This document shows, piece by piece, positions 48,276-50,661 of a DNA stretch of 57,821 nucleotides. Position 1 is the first letter of the stretch; each line of letters opens with the position of its first letter. Source of the stretch: Sphingomonadales bacterium (GTDB lineage Bacteria; Pseudomonadota; Alphaproteobacteria; Sphingomonadales; Sphingomonadaceae); assembly GCA_017309275.1 (NCBI GenBank), contig JAFKLT010000060.1, positions 1 through 57,821 on the forward strand. The letters are read 5' to 3'. The position numbers and the translations under genes were made by a program. A model generated the notes under the pieces. That model saw only the letters and a list, made by a program, of their open reading frames with translations, was not told where the DNA came from and did not search any database.

Positions 48276-48295
48276 CCCGCAATGTGATATCCGAA

Positions 48296-48324
48296 TTGAC
48301 AATCACACTGTGATGTGAAATAGC
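48296..48324 (+). promoter_or_regulatory. ribB promoter
   Basis: A consensus TTGACA at 48296-48301 is followed by a 17-base spacer and a weak -10 (AATAGC, 48319-48324). It lies 7-35 bases before the ribB ATG. The leader would be very short, leaving no room for an FMN riboswitch. Confidence 0.5.
48302..48314 (+). promoter_or_regulatory. 13-base palindromic operator candidate in ribB promoter
   Basis: ATCACA-C-TGTGAT is a perfect palindrome that fills the spacer between the -35 and -10. The half-site TGTGAT also occurs at 48283-48288, just upstream of the -35. Binding here would block RNA polymerase. The best candidate ligand is the helix-turn-helix at the start of the RibB protein encoded next to it. 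Confidence 0.55.
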
Positions 48325-48330
48325 GCGGCC

Positions 48331-49605
48331 ATGTCCACGCAACTCATCGATCGTATCCGCGCCATCGTCGAAGACGGCACCATGTCCCGCTCGGGACTGG
48401 CGCGCGCCGCGGGTCTTCACGCCAACAGCCTTCGCGACCTCGATTCAGAGGGCTGGAATCCCACCGCCGATACGCTGCGCAAGCTGGAAAACTGGCTTGC
48501 GCACGGCAGCGACCTGTCGCCGATGGCGACGCCCGAGGAAATCATTGCGGAGGCGCGCAACGGCCGGATGTTCATCCTGGTCGACGATGAGGATCGCGAG
48601 AATGAGGGCGATCTGGTCATTCCTGCGCAGATGGCGACGCCCGACGCGGTGAATTTCATGGCGACGCACGGCCGCGGGCTCATCTGCCTGACCCTCACCA
48701 AGTCGCGCGTCGATCAGCTCGGCCTCGAACTGATGAGCCGCAACAACGGCACGCGGCACGAAACGGCCTTCACGACGTCGGTCGAGGCGCGCGAGGGCGT
48801 GACCACCGGCATCTCGGCCGCCGATCGTGCACGCACGGTGTCGGTCGCGATCGACGCGTCGAAGGGTCGCGACGACATCGTCACCCCCGGCCATGTTTTC
48901 CCGCTGATCGCGCGCGACGGCGGCGTCCTCGTGCGTGCTGGCCATACCGAGGCGTCGGTCGATATCGCCCGTCTGGCGGGGCTCAATCCCTCGGGCGTGA
49001 TCTGCGAGATCATGAACGACGACGGATCGATGGCGCGCCTCGACGACCTGATCCCCTTCGCCCGGCGCCACGGGCTGAAGATCGGCACGATCGCCGACCT
49101 GATCGCCTATCGCAACCGCACCGACCGGCTGGTCGAATGCGTGTCGGACGAGCCGTTCGAATCGGATTATGGTGGCGACTGGCGATTGAAATCCTATCGC
49201 AACAAGGTCGACGGCACGATCAACCTCGTCCTGCAAAAGGGGCCGGTCGATCCCGAAGGCGTCACGCTGGTGCGCATGCACGCCGTGTCGATCTTTGACG
49301 ATATCATGGGCCGCCCGGGGCCGCGGAAGCGGCGCCTGCAGCGGTCGATGGACGCGATCGGCGAAGCCGGTGCGGGGGTGATCGTGATGCTGATGCGTCC
49401 GCTCCCCGGTTCAGCCGATGCCGAAGCGGCACCCGCCAGCGCCGGCATGGACCTTCGCACCTATGGCATCGGCGCGCAGATCCTGGCCGACCTTGGCGTC
49501 CATGCGATGGAACTGCTTACCCCCACCCACAGCAATATCGTCGGCCTCGAAGGCTATGGCCTGTCGGTCGTCGGCGAACGCTCAATTCCCGGAGAGGCCG
49601 AGTAA
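48331..49605 (+). CDS. ribB: 3,4-dihydroxy-2-butanone-4-phosphate synthase with N-terminal HTH
   Basis: A 424-residue protein with three parts. Residues 1-62 are an XRE-like helix-turn-helix ([19 protein letters not shown], then [15 protein letters not shown]). Residues 66-262 are a complete DHBP synthase, with [41 protein letters not shown] and [14 protein letters not shown], making the four-carbon unit of riboflavin from ribulose 5-phosphate. Residues 265-420 resemble GTP cyclohydrolase II, but the zinc-binding cysteine region is missing, while the end ([27 protein letters not shown]) is kept. The second activity is therefore probably lost. The ribH ATG overlaps its stop. Confidence 0.92.
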
Positions 49606-50030
49606 TGGCGCATGTCCTGATCGTCGAAGCCCGCTTCTATTCGCACCTCAACGATATGCTGCTCGACGGCGTGCGCAGCGCGCTGCAAGCCGAAGGGCAT
49701 AGTCACGACACGGTGACCGTCCCCGGCGCGCTGGAGGTTCCGGCCGCGATCTCGCTCGCCGCCGACAGCGGGCGCTATGACGCCTATGTCGCGCTGGGCG
49801 TCGTCATTCGCGGCGAAACCTATCATTTCGAAGTCGTCTCGAACGAGAGCGCGCGCGGCATCATGGCGCTGACGCTCGACGGGCTGGCGATCGGCAACGG
49901 CATCCTGACGGTCGAGAATGAAGAACAGGCGCTTGCGCGCGCCGACAAGACGCGCAAGGATAAGGGCGGCGAGGCGGCGAAGGCTGCGCTCGCGATGCTG
50001 GCGCTGAAGGAACAGTTCGGAATTGGCTGA
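49605..50030 (+). CDS. ribH: 6,7-dimethyl-8-ribityllumazine synthase
   Basis: A 141-residue enzyme that joins the RibB product to the pyrimidine to make lumazine, the precursor of riboflavin. Motifs are [27 protein letters not shown] and [23 protein letters not shown], with the catalytic His in the last. Its ATG shares a base with the ribB stop (TAATG). It also overlaps the next gene if that starts at TTG 50023. It forms a 60-mer or pentamer in other bacteria; that cannot be told here. Confidence 0.96.
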
Positions 50031-50034
50031 TCGC

Positions 50035-50661
50035 ATGCCCCCTGGCCGCTACTCCGTCGTCGAACGCGGCGGGCGGCTGGTGGTCATCGATCGCGATACC
50101 GGACAGACGCCGCTGAGCGCGGCCGAGCGCATGGCCGACCACGACCGGCGCATGGGGCATGAACCGAACCGGCCGGTGGAACGCGAAAAGGTGCCGGCCC
50201 CCACCCCCACGGCAGCCACCCCGGCCTCGCGCAGCATGGAGGCCCCCCCGGCGAACGACCGCATGGCGGCCGCCGTCGCCGGAATGAACCGCAAACAGCC
50301 GTGGAAGACGACAGCGGCGCCGAAGCCGTCGTCCGCCGCAAAGCCGGAACCCGCGCGCATTGCGCAGCGCCAGCAACCCTCCGCAGGTGCGCCTGCACGC
50401 GGGCGCAAGACGGTCGTTACCGGCAAATGGTGGGATTCGAAGGGGCCGCGAACGATCGAGCTTGGCCCAAAGGGTCAACAGACGCTGAGCGGCGGCTTCA
50501 TCACGCTTTTCTTCGTCGCGCTGATCGCGGCGATCGTCACGCTCTTCATCGCGCCGATTCTCTTTTTTATCGTAGCCTTCCTGCTCTTCCGCTTCGGGGG
50601 GCAGGTGCTGGGTCCGATCGGCGCGGGGATCGTCGACAAGGCGCTCGCCGAAAGAAATTAG
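50035..50661 (+). CDS. low-complexity protein with C-terminal membrane helices, unknown
   Basis: About 208 residues from ATG 50035; TTG 50023, preceded by AAGGA, would add four. A charged N-terminal part (RYSVVERGGRLVVIDRDTGQT) leads to a long Pro/Ala/Lys-rich disordered region, then a short TVVTGKWWDSKGPRTIELG module and a hydrophobic stretch (about 160-190) of one or two membrane helices. No known family is apparent. It is the third gene of the ribB-ribH unit, only four bases after ribH, so it may relate to riboflavin or simply be co-transcribed. Confidence 0.72.
   Translation: MPPGRYSVVERGGRLVVIDRDTGQTPLSAAERMADHDRRMGHEPNRPVEREKVPAPTPTAATPASRSMEAPPANDRMAAAVAGMNRKQPWKTTAAPKPSSAAKPEPARIAQRQQPSAGAPARGRKTVVTGKWWDSKGPRTIELGPKGQQTLSGGFITLFFVALIAAIVTLFIAPILFFIVAFLLFRFGGQVLGPIGAGIVDKALAERN

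Follow-up and report, generated by a model that had tools for sequence, protein, structure and literature searches.

Many sphingomonads encode a RibB-type riboflavin enzyme with a predicted DNA-binding head, and the promoter of the same gene carries a conserved site, which suggests that the protein controls its own gene. The case described here comes from a 57,821-nucleotide stretch of DNA from a Sphingomonadales bacterium (the window). From sequence comparisons, we consider it probable, at roughly 80%, that the encoded protein, RibBX, acts as an autorepressor with ribBX-ribH as its one target, standing where a riboswitch would. A helix-turn-helix (HTH) domain is fused to the enzyme, a 16-bp inverted repeat (the operator) occupies the ribBX promoter, the two co-occur and change together on a protein tree, nearly all good copies of the operator are sited at ribBX, and the FMN riboswitch is rare in the family (Sphingomonadaceae). 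The self-regulated riboflavin operon that an earlier note on this DNA had proposed thus gains support from the co-occurrence of HTH and operator and from the absence of a riboswitch.

The open reading frame at 48331-49605 (plus strand) encodes a 424-residue product, in which an N-terminal HTH of about 64 residues precedes a DHBP synthase domain and a GCH2-like X domain (Table 1). The earlier note had described it as an HTH fused to a full RibB enzyme. The DHBP synthase is indeed intact, with its motifs kept in 33 aligned proteins, but the GCH2-like domain makes the protein a RibBX rather than a plain RibB. In the same 33-protein alignment, this second domain has lost the zinc cysteines, and HAVSIFDD...GPRK stands in place of the HSECLTGD...RCDCG segment of the canonical RibBA rows, which assigns the enzyme to the RibBX type. 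The ribBX stop codon overlaps the ribH start codon (TAATG), and a ribH motif follows ribBX in 79 of 115 loci; it was not seen in 33, many of which gave only about 400 nt for inspection, and 3 loci were too short. A gene for a putative small membrane protein (50023-50661, plus strand) lies directly 3′ of ribH, possibly in the same operon, and a Pfam search with its product returned no match at E 0.1.

Table 1. Features of the ribBX-ribH region; positions are those of the window
Feature	Position	Strand	Basis
Accessory half-site AATGTGA	48281..48287	+	Half-site spacing across 115 promoters
Putative -35, TTGACA, directly 5′ of the operator	48296..48301	+	Sequence; weak TTG preference
Perfect 13-bp palindrome of the earlier note, ATCACACTGTGAT, overlapping the operator	48302..48314	+	Sequence
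Operator, 16-bp inverted repeat TCACACT-GT-GATGTGA, two mismatches to the consensus TCACATTNNAATGTGA	48303..48318	+	Comparison of 112 promoters; shuffles
Putative weak -10, AATAGC, directly 3′ of the operator	48319..48324	+	Sequence; TA preference
N-terminal Cro/C1-like HTH domain of RibBX (likely; residues 1-64)	48331..48522	+	Alignments, predicted helices, Foldseek, weak Pfam/PHROG matches
DHBP synthase (RibB) domain, residues 69-260	48535..49110	+	PF00926, E 1.6e-84; TIGR00506 over cut-off
X domain (GCH2-like), residues 273-416	49147..49578	+	PF00925, E 6.9e-29; TIGR00505 far below cut-off
ribH, lumazine synthase	49605..50030	+	PF00885, E 3.7e-44

A separate ribA scored over the cut-off in 11 of 12 genomes tested. 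In the draft assembly to which the window belongs, no canonical ribA scored over it, perhaps owing to an assembly gap. The same assembly contains a second RibBX-like gene, which has no HTH (contig C31, L256:1404-2612, minus strand) and adjoins a putative flavin-reductase gene and putative enoyl-CoA hydratase genes; it may provide extra flavin for a catabolic pathway, or it may reflect contamination of the draft.

The N-terminal domain scores below the Pfam cut-off (HTH_26, E 0.071, 13.8 of the required 22 bits), so that routine annotation may overlook it. Comparison with PHROG transcription regulators (E 0.0014) and with the aMBF1 profile (E 0.0015) gave better matches. An AlphaFold2 model built from 14 sequences (mean pLDDT 77) has helices at residues 2-15, 20-26 and 46-59, and DSSP assigned no helix to the recognition segment in either structure model of the domain. 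Searched with Foldseek, the model retrieved mostly HipB, HigA, SinR, the 434 and P22 (c2) repressors and C-proteins, as well as the N-domain of MuB; these matches had E values of 0.06-1, none of them below 0.05, with probabilities near 1 for the best ones and TM scores mostly of about 0.57. A profile search against PDB sequences gave six matches at E 0.089 or higher, among them three XRE proteins and one T4 lysozyme. Ten positions of the domain are invariant among 47 aligned rows. Since the PHROG and aMBF1 matches and the predicted fold concur, residues 1-64 likely adopt a Cro/C1-like fold, in agreement with the XRE-like domain that had been proposed for the first 62 residues.

Upstream of the gene, the perfect palindrome and the extra half-site reported in the earlier note are both present: the palindrome follows TTGACA and lies in the 17-bp spacer before a weak -10. 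Given the spacing rule described below, the half-site would point to another operator, 31 bp away from the main one. Because the -10 lies very close to the start codon, transcription would start at or near the ATG and yield a leaderless mRNA, which would have no space for a riboswitch. At up to three mismatches, the ribBX operator is the only site in the window; there is thus no operator 5′ of ribE within the reach of the contig.

As to which sequence forms the site, the conserved dyad at the promoter held up and the 13-mer as its unit did not, the 16-bp repeat taking its place. The 13-mer is exact in 4 of 106 promoters and the 16-mer in 27 of 106, even though the 16-mer has two more fixed letters; in the window, the perfect 13-mer arises because the spacer letters of the operator happen to be GT. 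ATCACACTGTGAT occurs exactly only once, both within the window and across the whole 5.1-Mb draft assembly, and its matches in the window at up to three mismatches (13, against a chance mean of 9.5) are not above chance. Across the same genome (G000), the 13-mer ATCACANTGTGAT occurs at up to two mismatches in 56 places, compared with 6 for a backwards control; base composition or another regulator is perhaps responsible for this excess.

The operator emerged when 108 HTH-ribBX promoters were compared by reading, which gave the consensus TCACATT-NN-AATGTGA (TCACAYT-NN-RATGTGA). The 134 HTH loci correspond to 115 distinct upstream regions, three of which (L217, L222 and L236) came from a search with the operator pattern itself; these were excluded from the main count, leaving 112, and still contribute to the RibBX tree and wherever 115 is the denominator. 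All 112 distinct promoters, picked independently of the operator, contain it at four mismatches or fewer. The best match has no mismatch in 28 promoters, one in 53 (81 of 112 at one or fewer), two in 20, three in 9 and four in 2. When 106 promoters were dinucleotide-shuffled ten times, a mean of 0.3 of 106 reached two mismatches and none had fewer. With no preset motif, a dyad count recovered TCACA-N6-TGTGA from 84 of the 106 distinct promoters; the mean over ten shuffles was 0.

Seven operator positions are 99-100% conserved among 113 aligned promoters, which further show a weak preference for TTG 5-7 bp 5′ of the operator (44-65% per column) and for TA directly 3′ of it (70% and 73%). The operator starts 25-31 nt 5′ of the ATG in 83 of the 112 promoters, where the nearness of the -10 again predicts a leaderless mRNA. 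At 30-33 bp from the main operator, 88 of 115 promoters have a second half-site, compared with 1 of 115 in one set with shuffled flanks; this distance, close to three helical turns, would suit two cooperating dimers.

The site goes with the domain. Whether the palindrome is kept where the HTH is had been suggested as a check, and the 112 HTH-bearing promoters, all with at most four mismatches, are set against the HTH-less ribB/ribBX loci examined in the family, where in 48 of 48 (27 + 21) the best match within 450 nt has at least five. An HTH profile search of the first 27 of these loci gave zero matches, and the remaining 21 were inspected by eye; the count excludes two loci cut inside the HTH (L178 and L190), includes one missed by the first motif (L183), and was made without thinning relatives, with two genomes (G010 and G015) contributing two loci each. 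A ribB match was absent in 4 of 55 genomes. Outside the family, 1 of 64 loci has a site at three mismatches and 8 of 64 at four within 450 nt; two of the latter (L018 and L037) are rows of the tree in which operator and HTH disagree.

In a tree of 149 RibBX rows from which the HTH part was left out, made by a quick search without a mixture model, the HTH changes 12 times. The genomes compared are related, and six independent pairs have supported branches: among these, the operator goes with the HTH in 5.8 on average and in the opposite direction in 0 (median p 0.03).

Within genomes, the pair looks like a one-target system. Among 25 genomes there are 17 sites at one mismatch or fewer, of which 16 are at ribBX; nine of the 25 have no such site, and one HTH-bearing genome (G163) has none even at two mismatches. 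The candidates for a wider regulon fell away, as the sole extra one-mismatch site (in G084) sits within a 418-codon open frame, and a two-mismatch site recurs in 4 of 25 genomes, its copy in L230 lying within a fabI-like frame identified by eye. The second RibBX-like gene on contig C31 was likewise rejected as a target: it is not among the five two-mismatch sites of its genome, one of which is that of the window, and an operator search at this locus found no site.

The HTH profile matched 249 of 298 family genomes at E 0.001, with up to 20 candidates scored per genome. In four of them (G005, G023, G067 and G248) the match lies in a frame of 105-246 amino acids that is not RibBX, and in G015 the HTH is a separate small gene. 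HTH-RibBX fusions thus occur in at most 244 genomes of the family, those in unfetched genomes being deduced from open-frame length, and the 49 HTH-negative genomes include at least one with a contig end inside the HTH (G179, L190). At the level of the order, the HTH profile matches 206 of 297 genomes with an E value of 1e-8 or lower; two lie outside the family, and neither match is RibBX. Among the best 80 of 589 relatives found in a collection of named genomes, 13 carry the HTH and 67 do not; by their titles all 13 are sphingomonads.

In keeping with the earlier note, which had seen no FMN riboswitch and had named one further upstream as an objection, no family reached its cut-off in an Rfam scan of the window, and a search of its genome for the FMN riboswitch (RF00050) found none. 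Of 298 family genomes, one has the element above the cut-off; for this count the search, as for any set above 40 genomes, used stricter filters that may lose weak matches, and a weak match in G250 (25.8 bits against a cut-off of 66.2) was set aside. The positive genome, G155, has no HTH match; its riboswitch precedes ribD-ribE-ribBA-ribH (L257:1551-5064, plus strand; ribD, ribE and ribH named by eye), where RibBA keeps its cysteines, and the locus was perhaps acquired. Since the riboswitch is also rare in family members that have no HTH, its loss may have preceded the HTH instead of resulting from it. The same G155 locus contains a sul1 RNA motif (RF03058; L257:6667-6722, minus strand) 5′ of a putative SulP-type transporter gene.

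We infer the following mechanism. Cro/C1-type HTHs, paired through RibBX dimers, would bind TCACATT-NN-AATGTGA in the -35/-10 spacer of their own promoter, and a second dimer might be helped by the half-site some three turns away. Bound RibBX would block RNA polymerase and thereby reduce transcription of ribBX-ribH, so that a protein-DNA loop would stand where many other bacteria have an FMN riboswitch. The likeliest signal would be a flavin or a pathway intermediate, read by the degenerate X domain or by the RibB site; plain concentration-dependent autorepression could also operate with no signal. In at least 26 of 115 loci, by motif count, ribE ends within 160 nt upstream of ribBX, with the operator between them. 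This arrangement would give ribBX-ribH a control of its own inside or beside the rib cluster, and ribD and ribE may escape it. The operator is sharply defined, which makes the predicted binding testable.

The placement of the operator bears on whether the HTH, once bound, represses at all. It might instead activate ribBX, as XRE regulators can, or simply stabilise the amount of the protein without responding to a metabolite. A flanking half-site is often found 5′ of the -35, as activation would allow, and any ligand is conjectural. The main operator, however, fills the -35/-10 spacer close to the start (25-31 nt from the ATG in most promoters, as given above), which is the usual place of a repressor, and we regard the activating or signal-free reading as rather unlikely.

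Autorepression by RibBX also presumes that the HTH is what contacts the operator. Were the operator the property of another, unlinked regulator, the HTH would serve elsewhere or as a dimerisation module; this is improbable, because operator and HTH occur and change together and a global regulator would have more targets than the 1 in 17 good sites found away from ribBX. CRP is a poor candidate for such an owner, since TCACA-N6-TGTGA differs from its site, the half-sites of which face the opposite way. Taken by itself, the window might suggest a chance or structural palindrome beside an idle HTH-like extension, given the weak HTH score and the shuffle-like frequency of 13-mers at up to three mismatches; the seven nearly invariant operator positions in 113 promoters and the ten invariant HTH positions in 47 rows make such a coincidence extremely improbable.

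Metabolic enzymes, or relatives of enzymes, that double as DNA-binding regulators include BirA, PutA, NadR and ThiR-type proteins, the enzymes of which differ from RibBX. Like BirA and the archaeal RbkR, RibBX combines an enzyme and a predicted DNA-binding domain in one chain, and a conserved operator lies on genes of its own pathway. In the excerpts available, RbkR is a riboflavin kinase with an N-terminal HTH (Rodionova et al, 2017; PMC8305020, PMC10746257). It resembles HTH-RibBX in that a single protein with an N-terminal HTH is both a riboflavin-pathway enzyme and a regulator of riboflavin genes; unlike HTH-RibBX, it is archaeal, and its enzyme part is a riboflavin kinase instead of a DHBP synthase. 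By analogy, RbkR is the nearest functional parallel, with an unrelated enzyme.

The RibBX proteins of Shewanella, Aeromonas and Bradyrhizobium resemble that of the window in joining RibB to a GCH2-like domain without zinc-binding residues; according to the portions of that study at hand, the ring-opening residues are missing as well, ribA is encoded elsewhere in Aeromonas, and the X domain of Shewanella regulates RibB activity by a mechanism described as unknown (PMC10012899). The same portions mention neither an HTH domain nor a self-operator for these proteins. The HTH-RibBX system offers a possible purpose for the X domain. In another alphaproteobacterium, Wolbachia, the available text reports that wBmxR1 and wBmxR2 bind the ribA promoter and activate a ribA reporter, while neither bound its own promoter (PMC3518464); they act, as proposed for RibBX, at a riboflavin-gene promoter but, unlike RibBX, are separate proteins.

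In its excerpted part, a recent review counts the FMN riboswitch among the key means by which prokaryotes control riboflavin (PMC12542839). This element (the RFN element) resembles the predicted operator loop in exerting feedback control at the 5′ end of riboflavin genes, but is an RNA aptamer and not a protein HTH. A family almost without the riboswitch has an apparent protein alternative, built into the enzyme itself. The earlier note knew of no RibB that represses its own operon in this way; likewise, in the accessible parts of the open-licence literature we recognised nothing that describes a regulator of the HTH-RibB or HTH-RibBX kind.

The HTH type is also found outside RibBX. In a different family of the order, 2 of 29 genomes have it fused to the N-terminus of CoaBC, an enzyme of coenzyme A biosynthesis (L242:208-1701, minus strand, by Pfam; L261:193-1677, minus strand, by eye), 3′ of a ubiB-like gene identified by eye; one type of regulator head is joined to two cofactor enzymes. 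A captured Cro-like phage regulator is a plausible source. More tentatively, and with odds that we place below even, the dead GCH2 domain of RibBX may have been kept as a sensor of flavin or an intermediate; it would act on the attached RibB and also, by way of a captured phage-type HTH, on the transcription of its own gene, with CoaBC having captured the same HTH type again. Stand-alone small proteins of this HTH type are encoded at L177:1453-1707 (plus strand) and L243:1423-1707 (minus strand), where their genes adjoin, in a Cro-like divergent position, genes that by eye resemble those of S24/LexA-type phage repressors.
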